A program made the translations under genes and the position numbers. A model generated the notes under the pieces. It was not told where the DNA came from. It worked only from the letters and a program-made list of their open reading frames with translations, and did not search any database. A stretch of DNA of 60,606 bases from a virus: positions 1-60,606 of the IMG/VR virus record IMGVR_UViG_3300044619_001853, one strand, 5' to 3'. Position 1 is the first letter of the stretch. Each line of letters starts with the position of its first letter. Shown piece by piece: positions 14,441 to 59,753 of this stretch.

Positions 14441-14565
14441 AGTTCCTCCATTTCGTCTTCATCTGCCTCGACAGCGTTAGGGTCTGACTCGGCAATATCC
14501 ATCAACTTTTTATAAGCTGCGGCAACGAGCTCAGCATACTTTTCTTTATCTGACTTAGTAACCAT
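14437..14565 (-). CDS. Small acidic head-operon protein, 42 residues
   Basis: The frame begins ATG GTT ACT AAG TCA and ends with an acidic tail (EADEDEMEEL). Its start overlaps the stop of the giant gene (TAATG) and its stop overlaps the next start (ATGA), so it is tightly coupled on both sides. No homology is recognised. Its size and acidity would suit a small scaffold or chaperone, which is only a guess. Confidence 0.55.
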   Translation of the reverse strand: MVTKSDKEKYAELVAAAYKKLMDIAESDPNAVEADEDEMEEL

Positions 14566-17500
14566 TATACAGTCCTTTCATCTTTGTTTTCAGGTTCAGC
14601 TTTTTTCTCTGCAGCAATCTCTTCTCCAGTTTTACCTTCACTTCCAACTCCGCTGCCAATTGGATTGCCGTCTTCATCGACAGGACCTTCTGGCTCTTCT
14701 TGCTTTCCAAGCATATGGTCAACTGCTCTTTGAGCTTGTTTTGCTGCTTTAACGATCATCTGTGGATTATTTTTTACAGCTGGTAGCCAAGACTTGGCAT
14801 ATGCTGCAACGTTTTCGAAGTCAATTTTTACACCAAGACGACCTGCAACAAGTGCAACGGTAATTTCTGCAATAAGCTCTTCTTCACCACGGCTTTCTAA
14901 GTGCTTTCCATAATTGTCCAGAAGTTCTGTTCTATCCAAACGTGACCTATGACCAGTGCTATGCGCTAATTCGTGAACAAGAGTTTCAAAGAATGATTGC
15001 TCAGACTTGAACTGCTCACGTTGTGGAAGCTTAATAATGTCATCTATAGGGCTATAGAAAGCTTGATCTTGAGCTACAAATAGAATTTCTGGCTTGTCTT
15101 TGTATGCTTCAAGAATTGCTGTTTCGCCTTCTGTAACTGGAATTGGTTCTCCCTTTACAATTGCTGGAAGATCAATATTCTCAGCTTGCTCTACGTTAAA
15201 GACTGTACGAATTGTAGGTGGTCGATAGACACGAACTTTTTCTTTTGTACCGTCTGGCTTTTCAACCTCTTTAAATATTTGTGGCCAGTGGATAACTTGA
15301 GTTCCCTTTTCACCACGACGAATATTTCCGCCAAGTTTTTCTGCTTTATTGTATGTAAGGAATCTGTTGTCTGTCCAGCCATTCTTTTCCATAGCTGCCC
15401 ATAAAACAAGGATGTTTGATCCTTCATAAGTTTTACCTGTAGCAACGCTAGTTGGAAGGAATCCTCCACCAGTCCAAGGCTTTTGCCATGGGACAGTTCC
15501 TCTTTCGATTGCTTCAATAATTGCATTAGCAACTTTTTCAACAGCTGGATCAATTTTTTCAGCTGTTTTAACAGTGCTTTCATTAAACTCATCTTCAGTT
15601 ACTTTTTCAGTAGGAAGAGCCATTCCCATAGCTGTTTCTACGGCAGTTGGCTTCTTTGGAGACTCGTCTTCATCTTCAGTGTATTCTTTAATCCAATTAA
15701 GTGGACCTGGATCTAACTTTTTCTGTGCACGAGTAAGTGCAACATATGCAAGACGAAGTTCCTCGTCTACTGGCATTTCAAGTTCGCCAGTTTTTTTGTT
15801 TGTACGAGGACCCCAGAAGTCATCAAAAATACGAACGTTGTTCCACTGTAAGCCCTTTGACTTATGTGCAGTGGTTACAATTACATCAATTTCATCTTCT
15901 TCTTCACCTGCATCAGGTGCAAAACCTCCTACACCTCTGCGTAGGTCATTAATAGCTTTTTGACGATCTAAATCGTCTTCAACTTCTTTAAACCACTGCT
16001 TACCTGTCGCATCCCAACGGAAATTTTGATCTTTAATTTTGTCCTTACCTTTAAATGTTCCATTACCAGAAAGACGAATTGCTTTATCTTTAACTTCATA
16101 ATTAATACCTTCTCCAATAGAACCCTTAGCTCCATCTTCAGCTTGATCTAAAGTAATCTTCTTAAAATCAGATGATGGTTTTAGGTCTTTCTTTTCAGAC
16201 TCAGGTGTAGCAACCTTTACTCTGCTAAGAATATCTTTAATAGATCCAATTCCATTTTGTACAACTAAATCGTATAGGGCTTTTACTTTTCTACCTTCGC
16301 CCTTTTCAACAGCTTCTTTTACCTCAGACCAATTTTTAAATTCTGCAAGATCTGGGTGCATTGTTGGCTTTTTAAACTTTGTCTGGTCTCCTATAAGCCA
16401 TGAAGCACTAAGAACAAGGCTTTCTAATTCGTCTTTTGTTCCTTTTGTAATTCCAACAACCTTGCCAGCATCAAGAAGTTCAATCATTGCTCGGAATCCA
16501 CCAGAGTTAGTACGGGTGATTACAACATCTGGATCTTCCATTCCATCTACTACTTCACCTTTTGACCCAGAACCTTCAACGCGGTACTTAGAATCAAGTT
16601 GAGTAAGGAAGCGATTTGCCATTCCAGCAATTTCAGGGCCAAAACGGAAAGATTGAGTTAGTGGAAGATCCCATTTAGCTGTTGTCCTATCTAACTGGTC
16701 TTCTGCTCCACGGAATGCATAGATTGCTTGGTTTCCATCGCCAACATAAACTTTTTGAATAGTTTGATCGGCAATAACCTTTGCAATAACTGGGTTAATG
16801 TCTTGAGCTTCATCAAAAAAGATTACATCTGCTGGAGTTTTCATTCCAGAGCCAATAGAACCTAAATCTGGATTGCTTAACGCCCAAATTTTTGTAATGT
16901 GAGCATTGTTGATACCAAATACTCCTGCAGGACTGTTTAGATCGTCCCAATAAGCATTGGCATACTCTACAAATGAGCGAGGAACTTCATCAAGCTCTTC
17001 TGTAAAATGTTTAGCACCAAGCTCATCGTCTGCGCTAATTGAAAAGTTATTAACTGCTTGCTTAATTATTGCTGGGATTTCTCGTGAAGAAAGACTTACT
17101 TCTACACCCTTAAGTTTTACACCAGTTGGTTTGATTCCAAGCTCGTCTGCAATATCTTCAGCACGAAGCTTCATATTTGCAGTTTTACCCTTTTGGTTTA
17201 AAAATTTTTGACGAATATCGTTGCTTACACCTTGGAAAGCAATTGAATCACCTGTGCGTGATTCAACATTTTTAGGCATCTTGCCTTCTGCTTCCATCTG
17301 TACTGTTTTGTTAAATGCAATATAAACAATCTTTTTCTTAGGTTGTTCCTCAAGAAGTCGACGAGCAGCAAGTGTGAGTGTGCTTGTTTTACCTGTACCA
17401 GCTAAGGCACGAACAACGACGTTATCACCAGTCATAATTGCTGTAACTACATTTCGTTGCTCGGCTGTAGGAGGGAATTTTTCTCCTGCATATTCGTAGT

Positions 17501-20500
17501 TATCTTCTGGAAGAGCGTTAGGAACAGCTGAACCTTCTTCAGAAAGCGGTGCCATGTCATAAACTTCAGCTCCCATGTCTGGAAGTGCCATACCCATTGG
17601 AGTTTCTGGAGTATCTTCAGGTTTTCTCCAAACCTTTACCTTATCTGTTAAAAGGTAAACGTCGCCGCCGCCTCCTCTAGAACCTCTAGTTTTTTTGCCA
17701 GTATAAACTTTGTCGTCTCTAATCATCATCTTATGAATCGTAGTTTTTCCACTAGGGTCTAGCTTGTCTCCAGGCTTAAGATCCTTTGCATCAACTATTG
17801 ATGAAACTAAACCTCTGGTAGTAGGACCTTCTGGAATAGACATTCCCATTCCCATATCTTCCACACCAGAAGAAAGGATGTTATCTCCATCATCAAGGTT
17901 AAATACTTCTAAGCTGCTAGCACTAACATTTTCTCTTCTCTTAGTGTCATCATATCTGACCTTGAGATAATTTTTGTATTTATTTTTTCCGTACTCTTCC
18001 CAGAAAACCGACACTGTTCCAGTTCTTCCATTTTTAACGTTTCTAACTCTATCTCCAGCTTTTATGGCTACGTTGTTAGCGTCTATGTGGAACTTAGAAG
18101 AGCCTTCTCGTGCAATAACCTGATCTTTAATTGTTTCGTCAATATTAAGATCCTTAATTGCTTCTTTAACTTTTTTACCAGACTTAGCTCCAGATGTAAT
18201 AGTTTCAATAGCATCTGCAACAACTGAAGCCGCTTGAGGGTCTGTAACCTCTTGACCCTTGACTGGCTTTTGTTTTTCTGAAATTTTTGGAGTAGGGTCG
18301 CTTGGTATTGGTTTTGGCAGAATGTCTTTAATATCTTCAGGTTTAATTTTGCCAATAGAAGATCTACGACGAACTACTCCTCTAAGTACTTTTCCTCTAG
18401 CCCAACCAACTCCTGGAGTTGAAGAAGGTTCTACACGTTCTGAAAAAGGTTTTCCATCTCTTAATCTCTTGCGATAAATAATAAGTTTGTCAGAGTTTTC
18501 TGGGTCAATTTGAATATCTACAACTTCAACTAATCCTGATGTACCTTCAAGAATATCTCCAATTTGTAGTTCGTCAACTACAACAGATCCTCCACCATTA
18601 ACTGCATAGGTATTCTCATCATCAAGTGCCCAAGCTTCGTTAATAATGTCTCCGAATATAGAAACGTGAGCGTAATCTGTTACTTTATCTGTAGGTCCAT
18701 CTGAACCAAAGGTTGATGGTGAAACAGCTTCAGGTTGATCTCCTTGGGCTTTAAAGTCAGCTAAATCTTTTTCATATTGTTCAAGTTTACTTTCATATTC
18801 TGCCTTACGCAGTTCTGGCTCAAATTCTCTATTTTCTGGTTTCATTTTCTTAAGAAGATCTTCTAAAACTATTGGAAGAACTTCAGAATCTGTCACGGCA
18901 TTGTGCCACTGCTTATCTTTTGCATCAACTCCAGCCTTCTTTGCAACAGTTACAAGAGAACTACCTCTAGCAACACCTTTATTAGCAGCATCTATTTCAA
19001 TAGTGTCAATAACTCCACCGAAAGAATACTCAATTCCAAATTTTTTGGCCCACTTTTCAAAAGTGTTTGTATCAAATTCTGCGTTATGAGCAACTAAAAT
19101 TGCGTCTTTTCCAATAAATTCTGCAAATTTACGAAGCTGATCTTCAATGCTTGGTTGAGTAGATAACCACTCGTCATCAACTTTTACACCTTTATTGTCA
19201 ATAACTTTTTCTGGATTTAGAGCTCTATTGCCATTTTCATCAAGGTAAGGCTCTACTATTCTAGTTTTTCCTACATACCGTTCTTTTGTGTAGTAGTAGT
19301 CATCTAGAGGTTGTCCAGGATTCATAAAGAGATCTATTTCGCCAACTTTTTTACCTTTTTCATATAAAGATGCAGCAAGTTGAATAGGTGCATCTGGATC
19401 ATCATAATCAAAACGACCAGTGCCTACCGTTTCAAAGTCAAAGTAAACAACTCTTTCGTCTTTAAGAGCTTCCCAAATAGCAGCGCCATCTTTTAGTTTT
19501 GTTAGTTTTTCAGCTGACCCGAAAAATGCTGGTCTGTTTGGACGATCAGGCTTGCTTAAAGCAGGAGATACTGATGGTTTGTAATCCTTACCTGCTTCTC
19601 TGCGGGCTTCTTCAATTTCAGCTCTCTTTTCAAAATATTCTTTGCCCTTTAAAGTTCCATTTGGAATTCTTTCAATTTCTGGTTTGTCACCAGATTTTGG
19701 CATATTAGCTTCAGACTCTCCTCTGATAGCGCTAATTATTGCTCCTTCATTCCAATCATTCTCTTGGATTGTATGTCCAGGATAGTAACCACGAACAATT
19801 GCTTTTATTTCTACTTCGCCATTGTCTGGTCTTACATATTCTCTCGTTTCTTCAAGAACTTCTGTTACAACAAAGAAACGTTCTAATTCTTTAGTTTTTT
19901 CATTTACGCTAAATGTAATATCTCCTGGTTTAAGGTCCCTAGCTTTAACCGAAACAATAGAAGCTCTAGGAGCTTGAGCAGTAGATACAGACTCGACGTC
20001 TGTTGGAGGAGTCCATGTTGATTTACGACGATCCAACTCTTCATCGTATTTGGCTCTTGCTTCATTGTAGCCTGGGCTATCCCCTCTAAAATCTTCACGC
20101 TTTGGTTGACGAAGTTCTGGTAAGTCTCCCTTTTCTGGAGGAGTTGCACCACGATAAACATCAAACAATGTGTCATCTGCCCAAAGCTTGCTTGATTGTT
20201 CAACAGATCCTGGGTAGTAGCCGCTAACAATTGATGCTGGTACTTCTACGCCTTTAACTGTCTTCTTATACCCACCTTCAACATTTGTAATTGTGAAGAA
20301 ATCATTGACAGTTACATCGCCTGGTTGAAGATCTGCGCCACGAACTGAGGTCTTAATTGGCTTTGAAGCTTCTGGAGTTACTTCTTCAGTTGTAGAAGTT
20401 TCTTCAGTAGGAACCTCTACTGACTCTGCTGGTCTCTCACCAAGAACAATTTCATCAATTATTCTGGTAACTTCATCTAGCTCATCTTTAAGAGCTTTTT

Positions 20501-23500
20501 TCTGAGCTGGAGTTGTTTCTTCGGAAAGATCTGCTCTATCAATCTTTCTTTGTATTTTGCGACGTCTGTCAACAAGTGCTTTAAGAACTTCTTTATCTTT
20601 AACGGAAAGAGGAGTTGGTTTTTCTTCAGCTACTTTTGGAGTCTCTTCTTCGGTTGAAGTTTCTTCAGGCTTATCTTCAGATTCTTCGAGAAGTTTGTCT
20701 TCACGCTCTTTACGTTTTCTAGCACGAGCATCAGCCAGCTTGCGACTTCTTTCTTTTCGCTCGTTTTGATCAGCAATAATGGCATCCATCTCGTCATAAT
20801 AAAGATTTAACATATCAATCATGTCTTGATCAGAAAGATTTTCTAGTTTTTTCTTATAATCTTTCATAGAAGAGCGAATATATTGAGACTCATTTCTGTA
20901 AGCTCCTGCACCCCACTTAAACCACATAAGTTTAGAGATCATATCTTTTCTGGTACCAAAGTTCCCTGAAACTTTATCGTCACTTTCTAACTTATCTTTT
21001 ACTTTATTAACTAGATCGTCAACAGTGGGCTTTGGTCCCTCTTCTGTTATTACATCAACAATAGTTTCTTCAACAATAGTTTCTTCTGGCTTAGGAGTTC
21101 TGGAAGGCTTTTCTGTTTCTTCGTCGAGTATAACTTCTGGAGTTTCTACGGTTTCAGAAGTTGTTTCATCTCCTTCAACAGGTTCAGTGTCTTCTTTTTC
21201 TCTGTCTTTTCCAAATATAGCGTCTTCTAAACGTTTAAGCGCTTTTGCCTCATCTAAGTTTTTCTTAAGAAGATCTTCTTCTTCCTTTACTCTTTCTTCA
21301 TCTCCACTAATTTTTGCAAGTGCAATTGCTCTATTTCCATAAACAATAGCGTTTTCATAGTAGCGACCAGGCGTTAAATCTTGATTTACTTGTTCACGGA
21401 GCTCGTCAGTAAGATCTTCAAATTCTGGCATATTTTCTTTACGAATATCCCCGATGTTTGCGTTAAGCCACTCTGCTGCTTCTTTTAATTCTGGGCTTCC
21501 AAAGTAGTCATTAATTTCTTCTTCGTTGCCCTTGTTAAACCATCCGTCAGCTCCAATTCCAAATATTGGGTACCACTTTCCTACAGGAACATTTTTCTTT
21601 CCTCCGCTACCTGTGCTAATATAAAACGGCATTCGTACTCCGTTAACATTAATTAACACGATAGGGCGACCAGCAAGATTAAATACTGGAGTTTCAATCT
21701 CTTCTCCGTTTGGCCCAGTGATTTTAATCATTTGAATTCCATCACGCTTTATTAATTTATCTTTTAATTCAGAAGATGGAGGTACTGGTGTTGATTCTGT
21801 TGTAGCAGCAGTCTCATCTACTTCATCCTCTGAATCAAAATCAATAGGGTCTTGTCCAGAACGAGGCTGTAAATCAATATTAAAACGATCACGAAGCTCA
21901 CGGGCAAAAGCCTTAAACTCTTTATCTTCTTGTAGTGCTGTTTGTGCCTTAACGTTAATAGTTCTACCATCACGTTCTACGGTGTCAGACCAAGTAAAAC
22001 CATTTTCAGCTAAGAAGTCTGCAATATCTTTGTCACGGAAAGGAGCTCCTTTACCGCCACGAAGCAGTGTTCGCTTTCCAGAACGCTTGTATGTAATTAT
22101 CTTTTTTGGAGGTCCTTCGTCTCCGTCAGTTGGTGGGGGACCTGATGGAGGAGCGCCAGCGGCTTCTTTTTCTTCTTCTTCAAGAATTTCTTCATCAATT
22201 TTACCTTGCTGTGTAGCGTCATACTCACCTGCAGGAGTTCCTTCAGGATACACACGTTCTACATCTTTGTAATTATCATTCCAATACTTAAGTGCATCTT
22301 CAAAACTAGGAAATTCGTCAGTTGAGTCATTATCTATGTTTGCATCAGTAATGATGTACCAGTGAGGTTTAGTACCTTCTCTATCTTGATAACCAATAAT
22401 GTCTCCAGTTTTTTTATCGGAGACCATTTGGTTATCTGTTCCTTCTACAAGACCCCAACCTTCGGGAAGAGTCTCTGGAACCGATACTTTTCCTGTATCT
22501 GTTTCATCTTCTGAAATATCTTCAGATAAAGGATTCGGGTTACGCTCTCTCCAACCTTCAATAGATTCTAAAGAATCATTAATAGATTCTTTAACTGCAT
22601 CTACAAGTTTTTGATATTTCTCATCGTCAGAAGTTGTAGAATCTACAGCTTCTTTAAACTCTTTTAATGCTGCTTCTGCATCATCATATTTGTCTAAATC
22701 TTTTCCTTCTAAGAAAGACTTGTAAGACTCTATAAGATCGTTGAGGTCCTTTTCATAGTCAGGATCATCACCAAATAGATTTTGAGCTCTTAAAATTGGA
22801 TTCAGAATATCTAAATCATTCCAACTATCTGTTTTTGTAAAACCTAAAGCTTTTCGTAAATTATCTCTGCGCTTTTGCCCTTTTTTAGCGGCTTCCTGCT
22901 GTCTCTTACGAGCACGACTTTCTGATTCTTTCTTTTCTTTAGCTAAATCTAATGTGCCGTTAGCAATATCTTTAAGAACTCTATTTGCATCTTGACCACG
23001 CAATGCAATGGCATCACGCCAAGATTCTGCAGAAACTGAAGAAGGGACAAACTCCCCATTTTCATCAAGAGTTAATACATCTGAGCTTCCACCATTTTTA
23101 ATGGAATCGTCAAGACCTTTAATAAGGTCATCATCAGAAAAATTTCTAACTGAAGCTAAACTAACAGCTTCTTCTTTATCAGCTTTAGAAGACTCTAAAG
23201 GCGTATACATTCCTTCAGGAAAATTAATATTTTCGTTTTTAGGTATAAACGGCATGTAGTCATCGTTATCAATTACTGACTGTTTTTCTGCCCTAGAAAG
23301 ACCCGCTAAAGCTGGTATTCGATTTAAAGCTTCTAACATATCTTCATTGCTTACAGTTTCGTCTTCTTCAGAGATTTCAGCAACTGGCTTTTCTGGTGTT
23401 TCTGATTCTTTTGAAACTACCTCATCAAAAACTTCATCTAACTCTTTAGGCTCTGCTGCTTTTTCTTTTCTTTCCTTTGAACGAGATTCAGTTAAAGCTT

Positions 23501-25148
23501 TTTCGTTTTCAGAGTTATTGTTGATCGTGTCATAAGCTTTTGCAAGAGCCATCTCTGTATCTCCACCTTGCTCGGAGATTGCACTTAGGATTGCCTCAGC
23601 TGGTACTTCAAACTCTTCCCCATTTTCATCTTCAAGACGACCTAAACCAGTTGCAGGTGTTTTTGAATTTACAGGCTCTAAAGCATCAACAAGACCGTTT
23701 TGCAGTTCATCTTCACTTTGCATTGCAGCAAGCATTGCTGGATCGTCTTCAGATCCTTCTGGAATATAGTTGTAGTTTGGATCTAATTCTAAAGAGCGCT
23801 CTGGTACGTTGTATTTAAATTGGTCTGAAGGAAGTTTTGCTTTTTCTTCTGTTTTCTTAGCTGCTTTTTTCTTTCCACCTTTAAGATCTTTAGCTAAAGC
23901 AACTGATTCCTCTTCTTCGCCCTGCTCAAATTTTTCTTCATCGTCTATTTTTTCTTTACGAGAAATTTCAGCTAAAGCATCTTTCCAATTTTGTGCAAAA
24001 GCAAACTGAGTGTTTTCTCCACGCTTATTAACAGCAAAAAGTTTACGATCTGGATCCCAAAGCTTTCCATCCTCTCCAAGCTTTACTTGACGAGGATCTT
24101 CTAAATCTAATTCTCTACTACGTTTAATTGCTGCATCAATAAGGTCACGAGTTTGTGGGCTTGGCCCATCAAAAACTGTTACATCAAATGATTCATCTGT
24201 ATATTTATTTCCTGGACCTTTATAATCTTTATCTGAACGAAAACCCGATGGTGCTTCCATAAAAGCTAGGCTGTCTTCAGGAACTACTGGTGCATTATCA
24301 TCAATATCTAAATCTGATGCTCTTACATAACCATTTTTACGAGCTTCATCGCTTGAGTCATCTAGGAAAGCTTCTGGCTGCTCACCTTGTGAAATTGGGA
24401 CTGCTGCAATACGACCATCTGGAAGTTCCATATCAAGAAGATCTGGACTAAAGATGTTTTGACCTAAGATGCGACCTGTAGCACTTGCCTTACCGCCATC
24501 ACGAAGACCAAGAATAAGTTTAAATGTTCCAAACATCTCTGCGAATCGACCCTTACGGTCACGGCGCTGTAGCTTTGCACGAGCAGAACGGGCGGCTCGA
24601 GAGTTTCCATCTCCGTATGCTGCAACTAAAGCTTGAAGAGGAACTGTTCCTTGTGGAAGAAGTTCTATGCGCTTCATTGCATATATGTGCTCTGGTGAAT
24701 CTGGGTGAGACATCATTGCTGAAGCTAGTAGAGTCTTTACAGAGTCATCTTTAAGCTTTGGATCGTCTATTACCCAATTAATCTGAGCCTGACGTACTGC
24801 TGCTGCAGTCATTGAATGAGCTCTTGTTGATCTTGGGTGTGATATTGGAAGTAAATCTGTATTAAAAGCAGTAAGTCCTACTACTTTATTATTTTTAGCT
24901 AATGCTATGTATGTAGATAGCTCAGAAAAAGCTTGATACTTACGAATGGAAAAAGGAAGTCCTTTGCTTTTAGCAAGAGATCTAGCAATTACTTTATAAG
25001 CAGATCTTTTACTTACACGACGTGATGTGGAAGAGAACTCGTTTGCTTTTTCTAAAATTTCTAAGGCTTCAGATCTAATAATACGAGCTTGTTCTCTAGT
25101 AGAAAATACTCTTTCTGAAGTATGAAGTATTGGAGATTTATTATCCAT
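14565..25148 (-). CDS. Giant polyvalent protein: exonuclease, helicase and ArdC-like domains
   Basis: A 3527-residue protein between portal and protease genes. Residues 1-111 end in DLLPISHPRSTRAH followed by SMTAAA, a candidate protease site. About 190-215 is an RDRKGRFAEMFG motif. About 230-1700 is acidic, Lys/Glu-rich, with small domains (VLINVNGVRMPFYISTGSGG). Two or more related DLKPGD beta modules lie at about 1590-1790, and a DnaQ-like DEDDh exonuclease at about 1895-2130 (VYFDFETVGTG, LVAHNAEFDTN, HNAVTDSEV). A UvrD-like helicase spans about 2555-3170 (ALAGTGKTST, FFDEAQDINP, TAHKSKGLQW, LAYVALTRAQKK). An ArdC-like module spans about 3205-3480: ssDNA-binding part (GTVPWQKPW), then zinc metallopeptidase HELAHSTGH near 3393. 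This matches the polyvalent-protein concept: factors delivered with phage DNA. Confidence 0.85.
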   Translation of the reverse strand: MDNKSPILHTSERVFSTREQARIIRSEALEILEKANEFSSTSRRVSKRSAYKVIARSLAKSKGLPFSIRKYQAFSELSTYIALAKNNKVVGLTAFNTDLLPISHPRSTRAHSMTAAAVRQAQINWVIDDPKLKDDSVKTLLASAMMSHPDSPEHIYAMKRIELLPQGTVPLQALVAAYGDGNSRAARSARAKLQRRDRKGRFAEMFGTFKLILGLRDGGKASATGRILGQNIFSPDLLDMELPDGRIAAVPISQGEQPEAFLDDSSDEARKNGYVRASDLDIDDNAPVVPEDSLAFMEAPSGFRSDKDYKGPGNKYTDESFDVTVFDGPSPQTRDLIDAAIKRSRELDLEDPRQVKLGEDGKLWDPDRKLFAVNKRGENTQFAFAQNWKDALAEISRKEKIDDEEKFEQGEEEESVALAKDLKGGKKKAAKKTEEKAKLPSDQFKYNVPERSLELDPNYNYIPEGSEDDPAMLAAMQSEDELQNGLVDALEPVNSKTPATGLGRLEDENGEEFEVPAEAILSAISEQGGDTEMALAKAYDTINNNSENEKALTESRSKERKEKAAEPKELDEVFDEVVSKESETPEKPVAEISEEDETVSNEDMLEALNRIPALAGLSRAEKQSVIDNDDYMPFIPKNENINFPEGMYTPLESSKADKEEAVSLASVRNFSDDDLIKGLDDSIKNGGSSDVLTLDENGEFVPSSVSAESWRDAIALRGQDANRVLKDIANGTLDLAKEKKESESRARKRQQEAAKKGQKRRDNLRKALGFTKTDSWNDLDILNPILRAQNLFGDDPDYEKDLNDLIESYKSFLEGKDLDKYDDAEAALKEFKEAVDSTTSDDEKYQKLVDAVKESINDSLESIEGWRERNPNPLSEDISEDETDTGKVSVPETLPEGWGLVEGTDNQMVSDKKTGDIIGYQDREGTKPHWYIITDANIDNDSTDEFPSFEDALKYWNDNYKDVERVYPEGTPAGEYDATQQGKIDEEILEEEEKEAAGAPPSGPPPTDGDEGPPKKIITYKRSGKRTLLRGGKGAPFRDKDIADFLAENGFTWSDTVERDGRTINVKAQTALQEDKEFKAFARELRDRFNIDLQPRSGQDPIDFDSEDEVDETAATTESTPVPPSSELKDKLIKRDGIQMIKITGPNGEEIETPVFNLAGRPIVLINVNGVRMPFYISTGSGGKKNVPVGKWYPIFGIGADGWFNKGNEEEINDYFGSPELKEAAEWLNANIGDIRKENMPEFEDLTDELREQVNQDLTPGRYYENAIVYGNRAIALAKISGDEERVKEEEDLLKKNLDEAKALKRLEDAIFGKDREKEDTEPVEGDETTSETVETPEVILDEETEKPSRTPKPEETIVEETIVDVITEEGPKPTVDDLVNKVKDKLESDDKVSGNFGTRKDMISKLMWFKWGAGAYRNESQYIRSSMKDYKKKLENLSDQDMIDMLNLYYDEMDAIIADQNERKERSRKLADARARKRKEREDKLLEESEDKPEETSTEEETPKVAEEKPTPLSVKDKEVLKALVDRRRKIQRKIDRADLSEETTPAQKKALKDELDEVTRIIDEIVLGERPAESVEVPTEETSTTEEVTPEASKPIKTSVRGADLQPGDVTVNDFFTITNVEGGYKKTVKGVEVPASIVSGYYPGSVEQSSKLWADDTLFDVYRGATPPEKGDLPELRQPKREDFRGDSPGYNEARAKYDEELDRRKSTWTPPTDVESVSTAQAPRASIVSVKARDLKPGDITFSVNEKTKELERFFVVTEVLEETREYVRPDNGEVEIKAIVRGYYPGHTIQENDWNEGAIISAIRGESEANMPKSGDKPEIERIPNGTLKGKEYFEKRAEIEEARREAGKDYKPSVSPALSKPDRPNRPAFFGSAEKLTKLKDGAAIWEALKDERVVYFDFETVGTGRFDYDDPDAPIQLAASLYEKGKKVGEIDLFMNPGQPLDDYYYTKERYVGKTRIVEPYLDENGNRALNPEKVIDNKGVKVDDEWLSTQPSIEDQLRKFAEFIGKDAILVAHNAEFDTNTFEKWAKKFGIEYSFGGVIDTIEIDAANKGVARGSSLVTVAKKAGVDAKDKQWHNAVTDSEVLPIVLEDLLKKMKPENREFEPELRKAEYESKLEQYEKDLADFKAQGDQPEAVSPSTFGSDGPTDKVTDYAHVSIFGDIINEAWALDDENTYAVNGGGSVVVDELQIGDILEGTSGLVEVVDIQIDPENSDKLIIYRKRLRDGKPFSERVEPSSTPGVGWARGKVLRGVVRRRSSIGKIKPEDIKDILPKPIPSDPTPKISEKQKPVKGQEVTDPQAASVVADAIETITSGAKSGKKVKEAIKDLNIDETIKDQVIAREGSSKFHIDANNVAIKAGDRVRNVKNGRTGTVSVFWEEYGKNKYKNYLKVRYDDTKRRENVSASSLEVFNLDDGDNILSSGVEDMGMGMSIPEGPTTRGLVSSIVDAKDLKPGDKLDPSGKTTIHKMMIRDDKVYTGKKTRGSRGGGGDVYLLTDKVKVWRKPEDTPETPMGMALPDMGAEVYDMAPLSEEGSAVPNALPEDNYEYAGEKFPPTAEQRNVVTAIMTGDNVVVRALAGTGKTSTLTLAARRLLEEQPKKKIVYIAFNKTVQMEAEGKMPKNVESRTGDSIAFQGVSNDIRQKFLNQKGKTANMKLRAEDIADELGIKPTGVKLKGVEVSLSSREIPAIIKQAVNNFSISADDELGAKHFTEELDEVPRSFVEYANAYWDDLNSPAGVFGINNAHITKIWALSNPDLGSIGSGMKTPADVIFFDEAQDINPVIAKVIADQTIQKVYVGDGNQAIYAFRGAEDQLDRTTAKWDLPLTQSFRFGPEIAGMANRFLTQLDSKYRVEGSGSKGEVVDGMEDPDVVITRTNSGGFRAMIELLDAGKVVGITKGTKDELESLVLSASWLIGDQTKFKKPTMHPDLAEFKNWSEVKEAVEKGEGRKVKALYDLVVQNGIGSIKDILSRVKVATPESEKKDLKPSSDFKKITLDQAEDGAKGSIGEGINYEVKDKAIRLSGNGTFKGKDKIKDQNFRWDATGKQWFKEVEDDLDRQKAINDLRRGVGGFAPDAGEEEDEIDVIVTTAHKSKGLQWNNVRIFDDFWGPRTNKKTGELEMPVDEELRLAYVALTRAQKKLDPGPLNWIKEYTEDEDESPKKPTAVETAMGMALPTEKVTEDEFNESTVKTAEKIDPAVEKVANAIIEAIERGTVPWQKPWTGGGFLPTSVATGKTYEGSNILVLWAAMEKNGWTDNRFLTYNKAEKLGGNIRRGEKGTQVIHWPQIFKEVEKPDGTKEKVRVYRPPTIRTVFNVEQAENIDLPAIVKGEPIPVTEGETAILEAYKDKPEILFVAQDQAFYSPIDDIIKLPQREQFKSEQSFFETLVHELAHSTGHRSRLDRTELLDNYGKHLESRGEEELIAEITVALVAGRLGVKIDFENVAAYAKSWLPAVKNNPQMIVKAAKQAQRAVDHMLGKQEEPEGPVDEDGNPIGSGVGSEGKTGEEIAAEKKAEPENKDERTV

Positions 25149-43078: not shown

Positions 43079-44860
43079 TCACGCCACGAACCTTTGCCCT
43101 GCCGTTGATAAAACTTTCTCGGCGTTCTTGCCGATAATTAAAGCAGACACACTTGGGTCAGTTATGTTCTCAACAACTTGGGCGTTCGCCGTTCCACAAA
43201 TATGTTTAGCAGTTGAGCCGTTATCGCCAATCGGTAGCCATAGAACTGCTACGCCGTTCTTTGAGCAACGAGCAACCCACGCCTTTGCGTTCTCTGTTTC
43301 CTCATGTGTGTAGTGTCCGTCAGATACAACAACTAATAATCTTGCGCCCTCACCATTAAGTAGATTGAGTGCGCCGTCCAAAGCACGAAACGCTTTATCA
43401 AACTTTTCAGTTCCGTCAGGGGCAGAATAAACATTTACTTCTTTTAGTCGTTGCCCTGCTTTTAGAGTTGGGAAAACATCTGAACCATAATAAACCATAG
43501 CGCAACGACCCTGAACTCGGCGAACTGCCTCACTCATAATCCAAGCAGTAGAAGCCATTGGGTTCATAGCAGAACTCATTGACCCTGAAATATCTACCAT
43601 TACGCCAACTGAAAGTGTTGGTTCATCTGTGTGCTTACGAACTTTTTTTGAGAAAGCAGTTGGTTGAGAATAAACTCCACGACTTTCCAAAGCCTTAGCC
43701 TCAATTACTTTTCTCATGTTTAATTTTCCGGGTGGAACAATACTTTTAACTTTAGTTATTCCACGCTCACGATACTTTGCTCTTTCTAAAGCCTTAGCAA
43801 TTTTAACTGCGCTATTGCGTTCTTGACCATTAGGGCTTCGCTTCTCAACTAACTTAGAAGCAGTATGCGCTTCCCCCGGACCTGAACTCTTTGAGAATAC
43901 TTGACGAGCAATTTCCTCATTTTTCTTTTGCTCTTTAGAAGTATTGGCTTTAGCAGTTGCGCTCTCTTTCATATCCTCTGATTGCTTTTGGTCTGCTAAT
44001 TCATTGGCATTAGAAATAGAAATACTTTCGCTCATCTCGCCAAGCATTTCGCTAATCATTTCAGCAAAGGCTTCTTGTTGTTCTTGGGTTGGTTGTTCCC
44101 CTGCTTCCTCTGCCTTTTCACGAACTAATTTCGCCCACTCAATCGCTAGTGGATAGCAAGCAGAAATATCAGTATGAGTTGCGTGGTCTTGGAACTGATA
44201 AATAATTTCTTTTAATTTCATAACTAAATCAGAACCTAAAATCCCATTGACTTTATCTACTAAATCAAAGGCTTCTAATTCATCAAGCGACCCTGCGATA
44301 ATTCTTGCGTGGCATAATCCAACTAAAGAACTAGCAGAACGAATTGTTGATTGCTCTGAAAATACTTCTTTGGCTTCGTCAATAATTAAACCCATAGCAC
44401 TTGCTCGTAAAAAAACTTTTGCGTCAGCGTGGGTCTTAATACCCCATGCTTCTATGCGACCTTCCTCTAGCAACATCAAAGCCTCAAACTCATCTTGCTT
44501 TAGTGTCTTACCTGCTAGTGGAATATCCCATGCTGAAAACTTTGCGTGGTATGCCTCATGGCGAATTGCGCCAACTGCTTTAGCAAACTCGTATTGGTTC
44601 TTTCGCTTTGTTAAATCGTCAATCATGTTAGGTGTAGTGATTTCGCCAAAGGCTACTTTTGTATTTACTTCTACTTCTGCGAGAGCAGGTAAGAAACAAG
44701 CAGGTGCGCCTTGACCTGCTTCTGTTCCTAGTAAAGCAACTAGGTCAGTTCTATCAGCCCAAGTATTTACTAATTGAGTAATTTCATATCCAACTCCTAG
44801 CCAATCGCTAGGTGTCTTAATCTTGGAACGATTAAGTTCCTGTGGCTTTATGTGTGCCAT
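43079..44860 (-). CDS. VWA-domain protein (CobT-like, partner of MoxR ATPase)
   Basis: A 593-residue protein. Residues about 1-250 are helical (VWA-associated region). About 250-340 are Lys/Glu/Ser-rich. The C-terminal VWA domain has its metal site near residue 420 (VMVDISGSMSSAM), with LLVVVSDGHYTHEE and a later VLWLPIGDNGS. The plan resembles CobT of cobaltochelatase and other MoxR-linked VWA proteins. It lies 240 bases downstream of the MoxR gene. Such pairs remodel protein complexes with ATP. A link to cobalamin metabolism is possible here but not shown. Confidence 0.8.
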   Translation of the reverse strand: MAHIKPQELNRSKIKTPSDWLGVGYEITQLVNTWADRTDLVALLGTEAGQGAPACFLPALAEVEVNTKVAFGEITTPNMIDDLTKRKNQYEFAKAVGAIRHEAYHAKFSAWDIPLAGKTLKQDEFEALMLLEEGRIEAWGIKTHADAKVFLRASAMGLIIDEAKEVFSEQSTIRSASSLVGLCHARIIAGSLDELEAFDLVDKVNGILGSDLVMKLKEIIYQFQDHATHTDISACYPLAIEWAKLVREKAEEAGEQPTQEQQEAFAEMISEMLGEMSESISISNANELADQKQSEDMKESATAKANTSKEQKKNEEIARQVFSKSSGPGEAHTASKLVEKRSPNGQERNSAVKIAKALERAKYRERGITKVKSIVPPGKLNMRKVIEAKALESRGVYSQPTAFSKKVRKHTDEPTLSVGVMVDISGSMSSAMNPMASTAWIMSEAVRRVQGRCAMVYYGSDVFPTLKAGQRLKEVNVYSAPDGTEKFDKAFRALDGALNLLNGEGARLLVVVSDGHYTHEETENAKAWVARCSKNGVAVLWLPIGDNGSTAKHICGTANAQVVENITDPSVSALIIGKNAEKVLSTAGQRFVA

Positions 44861-45035
44861 GTCTTTCGTCCTTTTCTAATCGTGTGTCCTTACAAAACCT
44901 ATCATACCATTTTGGGGGGGATAATCAAACTTAGGGCTTGGCGTGGGGTGGGGAACTTGGGAAGTGATTTTAGATCCTGGAACCAAAGCTTTAACCCTGC
45001 CCTGCGTTATTTAGTTTTATTTACCCCTAGTTATT

Positions 45036-45068
45036 TAGAGAGTGGGAGTAGAGATACCTAACTCCCAC
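45036..45068 (-). terminator. Hairpin after the MoxR gene
   Basis: GTGGGAGT and ACTCCCAC form an 8-bp stem. The T tract after it is weak, so it may attenuate rather than end transcription. Confidence 0.5.
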
Positions 45069-45100
45069 CCTCAAAGCCAACACTAGGTTCTAGGGAAAAC

Positions 45101-46159
45101 CTAGATTTTCGCTGGCTTATGCTCTGCGCCGAACGCCCGAGCAATTACATCAACAACTACATCTCTATCTATTTCAGGTGCGCTCGCAATTAAATTAGAA
45201 ATTGCGAACTCTGTTCCAAAGACTTCACTTGTATCTCTGAAACCTAGCAACTCACGCATTTGTGGCGACCATGAGATTTCAGCACTATCGCCTTGTGTGC
45301 GCTTGTATAGATTTTGAGCAACGCTAACCATTGTCGCTGGCACTCCTAACTTCTTTGCCAACGCCCAATCAGTAGTTAGTTCTGCTTGGATTTGGAAACG
45401 AGATATTAACGCTTCACTCATGCGAACCCCCGGAGCATTTGGGTTAGTAGCAGAAACTACATAAAAATCCTCATGGACTTTAATAGTTCCTCTTTCAGGG
45501 TTCATTGGAATTGTGATTTCTTTTCGTCCGTCCATTACTGAATAGACAACTGCTAAGGCTTTAGGGTCAATCAAACCAATCTCGTCAATAAAGAAAGGCT
45601 TTCCAAACTCAACTGCCTTAATAAATCCTGCGTCAATCCACTCAAACTTTCCACTTGGGGTCTGAATAAACGAACCATAAAAATCATTGGTATCAGTATC
45701 ACCATTACCAATTAAAGTTATTACTTCGTCATTAGAAAAACTTGCTTCTACTAAAGCAGTTTTTCCTGTTCCCGGAACTCCATAGAAAAATGCGAATTGT
45801 GGAGAACCAACGCCCTCTGAAAAGAACTTCTTAGTTGCTTCTCTTGCTCGGCGTAGAACTGCTACATCAGTATGAACTCCCCATTGGCGAGTGAAATACT
45901 TTTGTCCATTAGGGCGAACATAGAACTCATCAGCACTCATGTTATCCACCTCAACTCCACTAGGGGTCATAGCACTAACTCGCTCTCTCGCTTTTCTTTT
46001 ATCGCCACTTGCTCGCTCAACGCAACGACCACTTGGTAGAACTTTTGCGCTAAGTCGCAAAGAAGTATCCTCATGGACACTTTGGGTCAAGCAATCAGAA
46101 ACGATATTCCAAAAATCGCCTCTTAAAGAAGCCAACTTGTCTTTGATAATTGTATCCAT
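45101..46159 (-). CDS. MoxR-family AAA+ ATPase (CobS-like)
   Basis: A 352-residue protein with Walker A GVPGTGKT (127-134), Walker B PFFIDEIG (about 188-195), the Asn/sensor motif VVSATNPNAPGVRMSEAL and the arginine-finger region LISRFQIQAEL. The N-terminal 115 residues are unlike core MoxR. The C-terminal helical lid follows. CobS and CobT are the ATPase and VWA subunits of aerobic cobaltochelatase, and cobS occurs in cyanophages. Here a wider MoxR/VWA chaperone role is equally possible. Transcribed before the VWA gene. Confidence 0.85.
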   Translation of the reverse strand: MDTIIKDKLASLRGDFWNIVSDCLTQSVHEDTSLRLSAKVLPSGRCVERASGDKRKARERVSAMTPSGVEVDNMSADEFYVRPNGQKYFTRQWGVHTDVAVLRRAREATKKFFSEGVGSPQFAFFYGVPGTGKTALVEASFSNDEVITLIGNGDTDTNDFYGSFIQTPSGKFEWIDAGFIKAVEFGKPFFIDEIGLIDPKALAVVYSVMDGRKEITIPMNPERGTIKVHEDFYVVSATNPNAPGVRMSEALISRFQIQAELTTDWALAKKLGVPATMVSVAQNLYKRTQGDSAEISWSPQMRELLGFRDTSEVFGTEFAISNLIASAPEIDRDVVVDVIARAFGAEHKPAKI

Positions 46160-56576: not shown

Positions 56577-58619
56577 ATGTCTGTTGCATTTTCATTTAAG
56601 CTTTCTGAAGAGTTTGTCTCCTCATATAAGGAAAAACAATCACCATTTGGTTACAAGGATGCAGGTGGAAACTCTGTAGGTGAGATTACCTTTCTTAGGA
56701 CTTATTCTCGCTTAAAAGAAGATGGAACCAAAGAGACTTGGGTTGATGTCTGTGAGCGTGTTATTAATGGCATGTACTCCATTCAAAAAGACCATTGCAA
56801 GACTTCACGACTCCCTTGGTCAGACACTCGTGCAGCAGCTTCAGCTAAAGAAGCATTTGACCGTTTATTTAATTTGAAGTGGACTCCACCCGGACGTGGT
56901 CTTTGGGTTATGGGAACACCACTTGTTAATGAGCAAAAGAACTCTGCAGCTTTACAAAATTGTGCTTTTGTATCTACAAAGGAAATGACAAAAAACGATC
57001 CAGCAAAACCATTTGCATTTCTTATGGAAGCATCAATGCTTGGCGTTGGCGTTGGTTTTGATGACCTTGGTGCAGATAAAGATTTCACTATCTATAAGCC
57101 AAAAGATGAAGTATCAATTGTTGTAGTTGCAGATACTCGTGAAGGTTGGGTAGACACAACTGCACAACTTATTAATTCATATTTAAAACCAGACCAACCA
57201 ACATTTGAATATGACTACTCACTTGTTCGTCCAGCAGGTGCTCCTATTAAAATCTTTGGTGGAACTGCAGCAGGTCCAGATCCACTTATTAAACTTCATA
57301 ACTACATTAGAAAGTTGTTTACTGGTCGTGAAAATGAAAAAGTCACTCGTACTGATATCGCCGATATTGGTAATCTCATTGGCGTGTGCGTTGTTTCTGG
57401 CAATGTTCGTCGCTCTGCTGAACTCCTTATCGGAAGATTAGACGATGAAACATTCCTTAATTTAAAGAACGCAGAAGTATTTCCAGAGCGCAACTCATAT
57501 GATCCTAAATCTCCCGGTTGGGGATGGATGTCTAACAACTCTGTTGCAGCAGAGGTTGGACAAGACCTATCAGGAATTGTTGAAGGCATTGCACTCAATG
57601 GAGAACCCGGAGTTGTTTGGCTTGACCTATCACGCAAGTATGGTCGCCTAATTGATCCACCTAATAACAAAGACCATCGCATTATGGGATACAACCCTTG
57701 CGCTGAACAATCTCTTGAGTCATATGAAATGTGCACCCTTGTTGAAACTTATTTAAATCGCCACGATGACTTAGAAGATTTCAAGCGCACTTTAAAGTTT
57801 GCATATCTTTACGCTAAGACTGTAACTCTTCTTCCAACACACTGGGAAGAAACAAATGCAATTATGCAACGCAATCGCAGAATTGGAACATCAATCTCTG
57901 GTGTAGCTAACTTTGCAGATCGTATTGGCTTACCAGTTCTAAAGGAATGGATGGATGCTGGATACAGCGTAGTTAAGAACTACGATATTACATACTCAGA
58001 ATGGCTTGGTATTCGTGAGTCGATCAAGACCACAACCGTTAAGCCATCAGGAACCGTTAGCATTCTTGCAGGTGAGTCTCCAGGAGTTCACTGGACTCCA
58101 GGTGGAAAGCACTTCAATCGTGCAATTCGTTTTGCTAACTCAGATCCAATGCTTCCACTCTTTAAGATGGCAAACTACAGAGTTGAACCAGCATCAGAGT
58201 CTCCTGACACAACATCTGTTGTTTTCTTCCCAATTGAATCGCTAGCAGAGCGTGCAGAAAAAGATGTAACTATTTTTGAAAAGATGGCTCTTGCAGCAAC
58301 TGCACAGCGCTACTGGTCTGATAATTCTGTGTCTGTAACTATTTCATTCAATCCAGAAACAGAGAAGGAACATGTTGGAACTGTCCTACATATGTATGAT
58401 GGCCAGCTCAAGACTGTTTCATTCCTACCATCTGGAAACTTTACATACCCTCAGATGCCATACACACAAATTACAAAAGAAGAGTACGAGGAATACACAA
58501 TGAAGTTATTCCCTATTGATTTCTCAGGTGTTTATGAAGGACTTGCTGCTGACGCTATCGGTGAGGCATACTGCACCACTGATGCTTGTGAGGTGAGGCT
58601 TATAAAGGAGAATCAATGA
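56577..58619 (+). CDS. nrdJ: Class II (adenosylcobalamin-dependent) ribonucleotide reductase
   Basis: A 680-residue protein of the monomeric RTPR type. Cys129 (ALQNCAF) and Cys386 (YEMCTLVE) are the reducible pair. Cys375 in NPCAE is the radical Cys, with Glu377. VKPSGTVSILAGESPG follows. The C-terminal CTTDAC (Cys666, Cys671) is the relay pair. It reduces ribonucleotides to deoxyribonucleotides using adenosylcobalamin, independent of oxygen. Strong ribosome-binding site (AGAGGAGATAG). Its stop overlaps the transcobalamin-like gene (ATGA). Confidence 0.93.
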   Translation: MSVAFSFKLSEEFVSSYKEKQSPFGYKDAGGNSVGEITFLRTYSRLKEDGTKETWVDVCERVINGMYSIQKDHCKTSRLPWSDTRAAASAKEAFDRLFNLKWTPPGRGLWVMGTPLVNEQKNSAALQNCAFVSTKEMTKNDPAKPFAFLMEASMLGVGVGFDDLGADKDFTIYKPKDEVSIVVVADTREGWVDTTAQLINSYLKPDQPTFEYDYSLVRPAGAPIKIFGGTAAGPDPLIKLHNYIRKLFTGRENEKVTRTDIADIGNLIGVCVVSGNVRRSAELLIGRLDDETFLNLKNAEVFPERNSYDPKSPGWGWMSNNSVAAEVGQDLSGIVEGIALNGEPGVVWLDLSRKYGRLIDPPNNKDHRIMGYNPCAEQSLESYEMCTLVETYLNRHDDLEDFKRTLKFAYLYAKTVTLLPTHWEETNAIMQRNRRIGTSISGVANFADRIGLPVLKEWMDAGYSVVKNYDITYSEWLGIRESIKTTTVKPSGTVSILAGESPGVHWTPGGKHFNRAIRFANSDPMLPLFKMANYRVEPASESPDTTSVVFFPIESLAERAEKDVTIFEKMALAATAQRYWSDNSVSVTISFNPETEKEHVGTVLHMYDGQLKTVSFLPSGNFTYPQMPYTQITKEEYEEYTMKLFPIDFSGVYEGLAADAIGEAYCTTDACEVRLIKENQ

Positions 58620-59068
58620 AAAATAGACTAGTACTGTCTTTTTTAGTTATTGGTTTGTTTTATGTTGGTTTGTCTTTTGTAAGTAAGTCCGACAACAACT
58701 GCGTCAACTTATATGTTGATTTTGGTTCTCTTAATGCTGAAACAAAAGTAGAAAAGTGTATAGAAGTTTCTGCTGAAACAAATGCATTAGAGTTGTTGAA
58801 AATGTCTGGTTATACAACAGAAGGCACACAAAAATACGGTGATGCTGTTATCTGCAGACTCAATGATCTTCCAAATCAAACTGTGGAATCTTGTGAGGTT
58901 ATGCCACCAGAAGATGCTTACTGGGCTGTCATAGTAAAAGAAAAGAAACTACTTCCTTTCTTTAACGAGTGGGGTTGGGCTCAGACAGGAATCAATGAGA
59001 TTTCCTTATCTGAAGGCGACTCTTTAGGTCTGGTCTTTTCTACAAATGGAGATCTAAAATGGCCTTGA
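58616..59068 (+). CDS. Membrane-anchored transcobalamin-like protein (DUF4430-type)
   Basis: A 150-residue protein. The first 25 residues are a signal or anchor helix (VLSFLVIGLFYVGLSF). The outer part (about 30-145) has VNLYVDFGS, TNALELLKMSGYTTEGTQ, DAVICRLNDLPNQTVESC, YWAVIVK and a GWAQ...SEGDSLGLVF ending. This is the pattern of transcobalamin-like C-terminal domains in actinobacteria. It would sit outside the cell membrane and may bind B12. The overlap with the reductase and adenosyltransferase genes supports a cobalamin role. Binding itself is not shown. Confidence 0.75.
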   Translation: MKNRLVLSFLVIGLFYVGLSFVSKSDNNCVNLYVDFGSLNAETKVEKCIEVSAETNALELLKMSGYTTEGTQKYGDAVICRLNDLPNQTVESCEVMPPEDAYWAVIVKEKKLLPFFNEWGWAQTGINEISLSEGDSLGLVFSTNGDLKWP

Positions 59069-59190
59069 TGTTAAAAACTAAAGGCAAGACTTCTGCTGAA
59101 ATTATCCTTCAACTATCAATAACTTTATCTTTTATGTATATTTCAAACAAACTTAGCGTAGACATTTGGCGCTCAATGACAGGACACTAA
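59059..59190 (+). CDS. Membrane peptide between transcobalamin-like and PduO genes, 43 residues
   Basis: The frame (MALMLKTKGKTSAEIILQLS...) starts inside the end of the transcobalamin-like gene and its stop overlaps the PduO start (TAATG). One hydrophobic helix (IILQLSITLSFMYISNKL) is likely membrane-spanning. The double overlap suggests a true gene. It could help present or transfer cobalamin, which is a guess. Confidence 0.55.
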   Translation: MALMLKTKGKTSAEIILQLSITLSFMYISNKLSVDIWRSMTGH

Positions 59191-59753
59191 TGGTTCACCT
59201 AACTAGAATTTACACAAAGACAGGCGACGATGGCACCACTTCTCTTGGAGACATGAGTAGAACTTCTAAAAATGACCCAAGACTTGAAGCCTTTGCAACC
59301 GTTGATGAAGCTAATTCCTACCTAGGTGTAGTGCTTTTACATGTAACTAATCCTGTTATAAAAGATTTACTAACAACAATTCAAAACAACATGTTTGATG
59401 TGGGAGCAGATCTTTGTACTCCAGTTGTCGACAATCCAAAAATAAAGCCACTCAGAGTTACACAGGAACAAATAGATTACTTAGAGCAACAGATTGATAC
59501 CTACAATTCAGAGTTAGAGCCTCTTAACTCATTTGTACTGCCATCTGGCTCTTCAGCTTCTTCGCATCTCCATGTGGCAAGGACAATAGTTCGTCGTGCA
59601 GAAAGAAGGACTTGGCATGCTATTCATAGTTTTGGAGAAGGTGTAAATCTTCTGACAGCAAAGTATTTAAATAGACTTTCAGATCTATTATTTGTTTTAG
59701 CTCGATATGAAAATAAAGAAAGCGGCGATCAGCTGTGGGTGCCTGGAAACTAA
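59190..59753 (+). CDS. PduO-type cob(I)alamin adenosyltransferase
   Basis: A protein of 187 residues (start ATG 59190). It has the family start RIYTKTGDDGTTSLGD, DEANSYLGVV, an acidic helix, and the conserved VARTIVRRAERR and KYLNRLSDLLFVLARY near the end. The enzyme transfers an adenosyl group from ATP to reduced B12, making the coenzyme that the class II reductase needs. It is translated in series with the membrane peptide. A longer upstream frame is less likely. The pairing of this gene with nrdJ in a phage is notable. Confidence 0.9.
   Translation: MVHLTRIYTKTGDDGTTSLGDMSRTSKNDPRLEAFATVDEANSYLGVVLLHVTNPVIKDLLTTIQNNMFDVGADLCTPVVDNPKIKPLRVTQEQIDYLEQQIDTYNSELEPLNSFVLPSGSSASSHLHVARTIVRRAERRTWHAIHSFGEGVNLLTAKYLNRLSDLLFVLARYENKESGDQLWVPGN

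Follow-up and report, generated by a model that had tools for sequence, protein, structure and literature searches.

The virus record IMGVR_UViG_3300044619_001853 of IMG/VR (60,606 bases, positions 1 to 60,606; this whole stretch is called the window hereafter) raises the question of why a phage would place a protein resembling the vitamin B12 carrier transcobalamin, a small hydrophobic peptide and an adenosyltransferase directly behind a gene for a B12-dependent ribonucleotide reductase. Since PHROGs matches in this record include tape measure, major tail, major head and portal proteins, we consider it to be that of a tailed phage. A preliminary description, made from the DNA letters, had placed four overlapping genes at 56577-59753 and read them as a supply line with which the phage would capture, activate and use B12 in a host that is short of this vitamin. 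All four open reading frames (ORFs) were located there, on the + strand. We consider it fairly probable that they form a phage-borne system for the supply and use of adenosylcobalamin (AdoCbl), in which the transcobalamin-like protein (hereafter TC) would capture cobalamin, the peptide would provide the coupling to the membrane, the adenosyltransferase would activate the vitamin and the reductase would use it, the feedback switch of the cell having been lost. The features of this cassette are the following:

56577-58619, + strand: nrdJ, predicted class II (AdoCbl-type) monomeric ribonucleoside-triphosphate reductase of 680 aa (Pfam, PHROG, PDB and NCBIfam matches)
58616-59068, + strand: TC, transcobalamin-beta-domain-like protein of 150 aa with an N-terminal hydrophobic signal or anchor (predicted fold)
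58697-59050, + strand: predicted beta-grasp (SLBB-type) domain of TC, residues 28-145 (range of the structural alignments; invariant cysteines)
59059-59190, + strand: small hydrophobic peptide of 43 aa with the C-terminal tail IWRSMTGH (tail conservation)
59164-59187, + strand: C-terminal tail motif of the peptide, WRxx[T/R]GH (conserved in the aligned peptides)
59190-59753, + strand: predicted PduO-type cob(I)alamin adenosyltransferase of 187 aa (Pfam, NCBIfam and PDB matches)

The stop/start overlaps described between successive genes are present at the junctions of the window: nrdJ and TC overlap in an ATGA, an in-frame ATG at 59068 is an alternative start of the peptide that would give a TGATG overlap with TC, and the adenosyltransferase starts at the ATG at 59190 (TAATG overlap with the peptide) rather than at the upstream TTG at 59166.

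The reductase matched RNR_Alpha (1.7e-29) and RNR-II_ins_dom (9.3e-13) in Pfam and phrog_367 (1.9e-138) in PHROGs, and its only PDB match at E up to 0.001 was 1l1l, the ribonucleoside-triphosphate reductase RTPR (2.1e-93). The N-x-C-x-E motif aligns with that of 1l1l (NPCAEQSLESYEMC vs NPCGEISLANGEPC), as does the partner cysteine (QNCAFV vs NNCWFV), and a C-terminal cysteine pair is found in YCTTDACE; presumably these cysteines and the NxCxE motif are the active-site residues. The best NCBIfam model by far was RTPR (TIGR02505; 1.2e-100), with 337.7 bits, that is 2.4 below its equivalog cut-off of 340.05. The Pfam insertion domain and the single PDB match bear out the earlier naming of nrdJ, and the window reductase is, judged by these relatives, a class II, AdoCbl-type triphosphate reductase. 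The adenosyltransferase scored far above both curated cut-offs, those of Pfam Cob_adeno_trans (PF01923; 9e-62, 208.6 bits against 24) and of NCBIfam TIGR00636 (1.6e-54, 184.2 bits against 108.45). Its best PDB relatives, 2g2d and 6wgs, which we take to be the PduO-type adenosyltransferase of Mycobacterium, share full-length homology with it (E about 4e-64), whereas the window enzyme is encoded by a phage and shares a stop/start overlap with the TC-peptide pair. On these scores the last gene of the cassette is a PduO-type adenosyltransferase, as first described.

TC has no meaningful match in Pfam, PHROGs or NCBIfam, any hits being weak and unrelated, and a Pfam comparison of 40 aligned phage proteins at E up to 10 brought up 13 weak families, DUF4430 not among them; cellular TC relatives score below the cut-off of NCBIfam SCO2322_fam, and a sequence search against the PDB gave nothing useful, leaving fold comparison alone as informative. 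TC was modeled with AlphaFold2 from the 40-row alignment, with a mean predicted local distance difference test score of 83 and 88 of the 150 residues at 90 or more. The best Foldseek matches of this model were 3u7z and transcobalamin, at E about 1e-3 and none below, while VIA-align gave Z values of 10.4-11.2 for its top 15 rows, with a root-mean-square deviation of 2.4-2.8 over 93-97 residues. Fourteen of these rows are transcobalamin, intrinsic factor or haptocorrin entries and the remaining one is 3u7z, a Ruminococcus protein. After this B12-carrier group the next fold came at Z 6.4, and since the similarity to binary-toxin components (Z about 6) lies below the gap, we took it to reflect the common beta-grasp arrangement. 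The structure search, named in advance as the comparison on which the transcobalamin-like fold of the 150-residue protein should stand or fall, upheld it, and TC as modeled carries a transcobalamin-type beta-grasp fold. Among the 40 aligned phage proteins 23 columns are invariant, including four cysteines (29, 48, 80, 93), MP, W103 and WGW; the N-terminus is hydrophobic, and a lipobox occurs in none of 54 distinct phage proteins. We infer that TC binds cobalamin at the envelope and serves its transport.

For the small ORF, the earlier designation as a membrane peptide is moderately favored by the hydropathy values of 54 peptides (51 phage, 3 cellular), whose best 19-residue Kyte-Doolittle value has a mean of 1.57 (range 1.19-2.17) and in which the N-side is the more positive in 38 cases. 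In its tail, W, R, G and H are invariant across 32 aligned phage peptides, and a similar tail is found in the ORF that follows TC in three cellular genomes, recognized by profile in one and by eye in two. A role of the peptide beside TC is inferred.

A search for the same gene order in other phages, suggested by the preliminary description, found that the set recurs in many viral contigs. The viral scan gave 8 relatives with TC and 222 with the adenosyltransferase, of which the best 80 were taken; the 88 fetched loci (L001-L088) came down, after removal of duplicates, to 65 distinct adenosyltransferase/TC combinations, window included. Of these 65 versions, 55 unite TC, peptide and adenosyltransferase; in 36 of the 55 the fetched DNA includes a reductase as the fourth gene, and the other 19 have the three. 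The remainder comprise six with peptide and adenosyltransferase (at a contig start), three with adenosyltransferase alone and one with reductase, TC and adenosyltransferase. In the 134-kb relative IMGVR_UViG_3300034200_001443 the proteins of the cassette are identical to those of the window. With start codons chosen by script, the spacing of peptide and adenosyltransferase is -1 base (a 1-base overlap) in 47 of 50 measured cases, TC and peptide overlap in 47 of 54, and reductase and TC overlap or lie no more than 11 bases apart in 33 of 37. The arrangement is not due to chance. It varies in order, with adenosyltransferase-TC-peptide in L043-L045 and L047-L049 and reductase-adenosyltransferase-TC, with no peptide match, in L038 and L039. 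In L023 (1080-1373) and L024 (1564-1857) a WhiB gene separates the reductase from TC, and in the window WhiB stands just after the adenosyltransferase, followed by an FmdB-type zinc ribbon (Pfam/PHROGs); tRNA genes are inserted in the cassettes of L019 and L020. The ratio of nonsynonymous to synonymous substitution rates (dN/dS) was 0.10-0.34 for TC and 0.17-0.39 for the peptide (8 pairs each), 0.007-0.090 for the adenosyltransferase in seven of 8 pairs, one being saturated, and 0.05-0.11 for the reductase (6 pairs), which indicates purifying selection on all four genes. At a threshold of E 1, TC had no match among GenBank phages; 15 GenBank phage records contain a relative of the adenosyltransferase, in every case below 60% identity and in 13 without annotation.

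We also searched 44 records whole for the window reductase, 42 with TC and two with the adenosyltransferase only, some of them near-identical to each other or to the window. A relative was present in 35, at 61-100% identity in 32 and at 29-31% in three; one of the three distant enzymes was typed, and class II structures are nearest to it. The reductases of cassette-bearing records thus look to be of class II. Two phage reductase matches (G007 12683-14713 and G042 7757-9778) contain one internal TAG, which may simply be the true stop near the end of the match.

The adenosyltransferase tree was built with cellular rows that are mostly the best scorers, without the ill-read rows G527 and G187 and with near-identical phage rows thinned (81 to 61 rows); the program warned of long branches meeting, so that the deep joins are unsure. 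At least two phage groups are seen. Clade A (19 rows) falls among actinobacteria with small genomes (support of 99/93 with two of these), and the window enzyme is 77-79% identical to its best cellular relatives; the second group, also of 19 rows, is deep and phage-only, with L041 and L042 near it. When these two labels were placed by hand on a TC tree (rows thinned from 61 to 52), on the basis of the locus survey and the enzyme tree, with that of L009 assumed as its contig ends before the gene, they were interleaved, and well-supported branches force at least three changes. The adenosyltransferase beside the TC-peptide pair thus appears to have been replaced on more than one occasion, and this speaks for a common function.

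Cellular relatives of TC, at 26-44% identity, are found in 41 actinobacterial loci, and their neighborhood points to B12 uptake. By a crude script, an ORF of at least 450 aa with a P-loop lies downstream of TC in 35 of 39 loci, and Pfam confirmed ATP-binding cassette (ABC) ATPases in all four loci tested (L091, L098, L114 and L128). In L091 and L098 the gene after TC encodes the ABC-ATPase protein, which in L091 includes a CbiQ-like region, and an ORF of about 260-270 aa comes next; the B12-dependent metH is close to TC in L098. The product of the latter ORF (L091 8135-8956, L098 8193-8981 and similar loci), encoded after the transporter ATPase, is conserved, looks hydrophobic, measures about 250-300 aa and often has F-A-W-P near its N-terminus. 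It has no Pfam match over cut-off and is a candidate for the substrate-binding (S) component of an energy-coupling factor (ECF) transporter for B12. With Rfam, three of 12 loci had a cobalamin riboswitch upstream of TC: in L128 it immediately precedes TC, in L118 it stands ahead of the gene that comes before TC, and in L114 it is about 1.8 kb away from TC. The gene preceding TC in L118 has a weak prenyltransferase-toroid match (E 0.023) and a SCO2321 match below cut-off, the two genes recalling, by analogy, the toroid-plus-beta design of transcobalamin.

Among an even draw of 394 class members, 56 genomes contain TC relatives and three genomes of 1.2 Mb stand out, with nearly full-length matches at E 1e-47 to 1e-50. 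In all three, the cellular TC (175 aa) lies directly behind an AdoCbl/cobalamin riboswitch and is followed by a small ORF, ending in WRYWGGHY or WRLWGAC as seen by eye; the other neighbors, by eye, are ordinary chromosomal genes. The succession of riboswitch, TC and a similar peptide identifies TC-peptide as a cellular two-gene unit tied to B12 feedback, an addition to the picture first drawn for this locus. Since cellular TC genes stand behind cobalamin riboswitches or before ABC/ECF-type transporter genes, we regard a predicted role of TC in B12 uptake as well founded. The three small genomes also carry their own adenosyltransferase, 410-470 kb from TC, so that, if they resemble the source, the genes were united in phages. 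They carry a B12-dependent reductase as well: the best PDB match of that of G317 is 7b9p, the other two are 92-94% identical to it, and G418 has a second, different reductase in addition. A covariance model built from the three small-genome switches had no match, at a threshold of E 1, in any of 75 phage sources, window included, and Rfam gave no cobalamin riboswitch in the window or in 14 phage loci. In G347 the same model returned the TC switch and three chance-level matches (E 0.2-0.5), and Rfam found no further cobalamin switch in seven of its 62 stretches. Two ATPase regions of G347, considered as ECF candidates, looked like other ABC systems and were set aside.

These observations can be combined in a stepwise proposal. 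First, anchored TC would display its transcobalamin-beta-like domain outside the membrane and capture cobalamin. Second, the peptide, which is nearly always found with TC, would tether it to the membrane or a transporter of the host, the WRxxGH tail probably facing outward. PduO-type enzymes adenosylate cob(I)alamin with ATP and class II reductases use AdoCbl; from this family knowledge, the phage adenosyltransferase would act on the imported cob(I)alamin and the reductase would use the product to make deoxyribonucleoside triphosphates for phage DNA. As for the origin, TC and peptide would derive from the cellular unit that stands behind a cobalamin riboswitch in the closest cells, phages having taken this B12-uptake pair of the host, lost the feedback switch and added activation and use. 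As the phage copies have no detectable riboswitch, the signal of the cell for "enough B12" would not shut the cassette off during infection. The more specific proposal, that TC and the WRxxGH peptide are a two-part unit for B12 capture, not described before, from streamlined actinobacteria that probably live in fresh water, kept under a riboswitch in cells and then taken by phages, freed of the switch and joined to AdoCbl synthesis and an AdoCbl-dependent reductase into a viral pathway from vitamin uptake to use, we consider to be evenly balanced between true and false.

Several results weigh against the supply-and-use proposal. The alpha/alpha toroid of transcobalamin is missing from TC, which consists of a hydrophobic N-terminus and the beta domain, and for lack of this N-terminal part we did not file TC as a transcobalamin proper. 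Nine of the 12 cellular loci searched with Rfam show no cobalamin riboswitch; the profile of the phage peptide found the small ORF in one of the three small genomes only (G317, just behind TC), at a weak E of 0.008; and no relative of the S-component was found in G347, the one small genome searched whole. No large-subunit reductase was seen in nine of the 44 records (14-80 kb, possibly fragments, two of them adenosyltransferase-only), a search with PF02867 that speaks mainly to other reductases, as this model is weak on RTPR itself (E 6e-5 in the control record L004). Conversely, of the 80 best-scoring loci among at least 599 relatives of the reductase, 76 have neither TC nor adenosyltransferase in the DNA fetched, though 12 of these extend less than 2 kb downstream, and one of the remaining four is the phage of the window itself; the complete relative DSL-LC01 has the reductase (79%) and no match to TC or adenosyltransferase. 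We conclude that the cassette is an add-on in some B12-dependent phages and not a requirement.

Among other explanations, the one that survives best, though we think it unlikely, is that TC and the peptide bind cobalamin and hold or sense it at the membrane, for retention of salvaged B12 or its hand-over to the enzymes, without raising import. It would account for a cassette that encodes no transporter and for a small genome with no recognizable S-component partner, and the stop/start coupling with the adenosyltransferase would fit a complex. However, bacterial proteins of the TC clade are predicted to be extracellular B12 scavengers (PMC1796856), and several TC relatives of Microbacteriaceae have, as judged by eye, an LxGC that resembles a lipobox and are encoded ahead of ABC/ECF-type transporter genes. 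The hydrophobic N-terminus and the four invariant cysteines of TC also fit a domain outside the cell. A role in competition between phages, in which TC, copied from a B12-uptake protein of the host and displayed at the surface, would block a receptor used by other phages (superinfection exclusion) and the adenosyltransferase would be a secondary neighbor, seems very improbable to us: small surface-anchored phage proteins often act in this way and TC evolves faster than the enzymes (dN/dS 0.10-0.34 vs 0.007-0.11), but its partners are class II reductases and adenosyltransferases from two distinct lineages, and nothing in this analysis marks it as a phage receptor. Least probable of all is the disfavored notion of a block of host-derived DNA inherited without joint function or selected linkage, for which the relatedness of the phages and the nesting of adenosyltransferase clade A among cellular enzymes could be invoked, but which sits badly with the distance between TC and adenosyltransferase in all three small genomes, with order variants that retain most of the set despite WhiB or tRNA insertions, with purifying selection and with the apparent adenosyltransferase exchange.

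Supply and use of AdoCbl by the phage thus remains our preferred reading, in which the earlier idea of a supply line is favored by the TC fold, the enzyme families, the recurrence of the set and the cellular B12-uptake context; its other half, a host short of B12, was not supported. WhiB and the relatives of the portal protein (DSL-LC01 at 73%, Microbacterium phage Pumpernickel at 62%) point to an actinobacterial host, that of DSL-LC01 being only predicted, to Actinomycetia (PMC10611076). A tRNA search of the window gave none. At L038 7983-8827, in one of the reductase-adenosyltransferase-TC phages, a transfer-messenger RNA and two tRNAs lie nearby; the former was tried for naming a host and was uninformative, with 186 of 394 genomes matched and the matches listed spanning only the last 30-55 bases. 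Because the three genomes with the closest TC possess their own adenosyltransferase and class II reductase, in such cells the phage would boost the pathway and not replace a missing step. In seven other TC-bearing genomes (Aurantimicrobium, Pontimonas, other Microbacteriaceae or Actinobacteria; some are metagenome-assembled genomes whose completeness is not known) neither PF01923 nor PF02572 was found, and six of them have a large-subunit reductase, the one typed being class I with a small subunit; in hosts like these the phage may supply AdoCbl that the cell may not make. That the phage fills a gap in a host without adenosyltransferase was suggested by these seven genomes and by PF01923 in 8 of 150 genomes of the family, but is undercut by the enzyme in the closest-TC genomes and in 359 of 394 of the class, and we kept it only as a possibility for some hosts. 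In size, GC content and published acI traits the three small genomes resemble acI genomes, which have no B12 synthesis and a riboswitch-linked putative B12 uptake (PMC5301498).

The coupling of a transcobalamin-like protein to both enzymes had been noted as not known to be an established phage system, and among the papers listed from the open-licence literature on phage or virus transcobalamin, adenosyltransferase, reductase, B12 uptake or DUF4430/SLBB none describes such a set. Its parts are already known: RTPR phages (PMC10547690), the adenosyltransferase in lists of auxiliary metabolic genes (PMC11183165) and the proposal of 2007, drawn from CbiO/CbiQ operons, that bacterial proteins of the transcobalamin clade of SLBB domains are B12 scavengers (Burroughs et al. 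2007, PMC1796856). With the latter TC shares the fold, a probable anchoring or secretion and, in its cellular relatives, ABC ATPase genes alongside, one with a CbiQ-like region; it differs in that a phage carries it, the cassette encodes no toroid, a peptide with a WRxxGH tail accompanies it and an adenosyltransferase and a class II reductase are joined to it, and no Pfam model reports it. The lytic marine viruses of the RTPR virioplankton have the same kind of B12-dependent triphosphate reductase and were suggested to perhaps regulate or enhance B12 uptake or production; adenosyltransferase and transcobalamin are not mentioned in the main text of that study, whereas here such genes adjoin the reductase (PMC10547690). 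Phage cobalamin genes listed elsewhere (cobS, cobT, cobA) include an adenosyltransferase, entered as cobA, but the portion consulted presents single biosynthesis genes, with neither an uptake protein nor a co-encoded user of AdoCbl (PMC11183165). The ECF modules of acI, found in streamlined freshwater actinobacteria unable to make B12, are likewise tied to cobalamin riboswitches, but the unit of the small genomes is TC plus peptide with no transporter gene recognized alongside, and its phage copies are without a detectable switch (PMC5301498). The joining of these parts appears to be new, as do the peptide and the cellular riboswitch unit, whose counterparts in phages are apparently free of the switch. 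If this is true, some phages manage B12 intake and activation besides using B12-dependent enzymes and, if the hosts are acI-like freshwater actinobacteria, vitamin cycling would be tied to viral replication in lakes. The finding also points to an unstudied actinobacterial B12 uptake pair, TC and the peptide, and offers a test case for riboswitch escape, the cellular copy being preceded by a B12 switch that the one in phages apparently lacks.

Elsewhere in the window, the region 43079-46159 (- strand) encodes a MoxR/CobS-like AAA ATPase (phrog_249 "porphyrin biosynthesis" 8.7e-17, AAA_5 1.6e-13) and a 593-aa VWA/CoxE-like protein (3.7e-5, under cut-off), together a CobS/CobT-like pair; a gene of DSL-LC01 is annotated "cobalamin biosynthesis protein". 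A 3527-aa ORF at 14565-25148 (- strand), in which matches of helicase and anti-restriction type (phrog_1967, phrog_7245) lie close to the C-terminus, is perhaps an injected internal protein.

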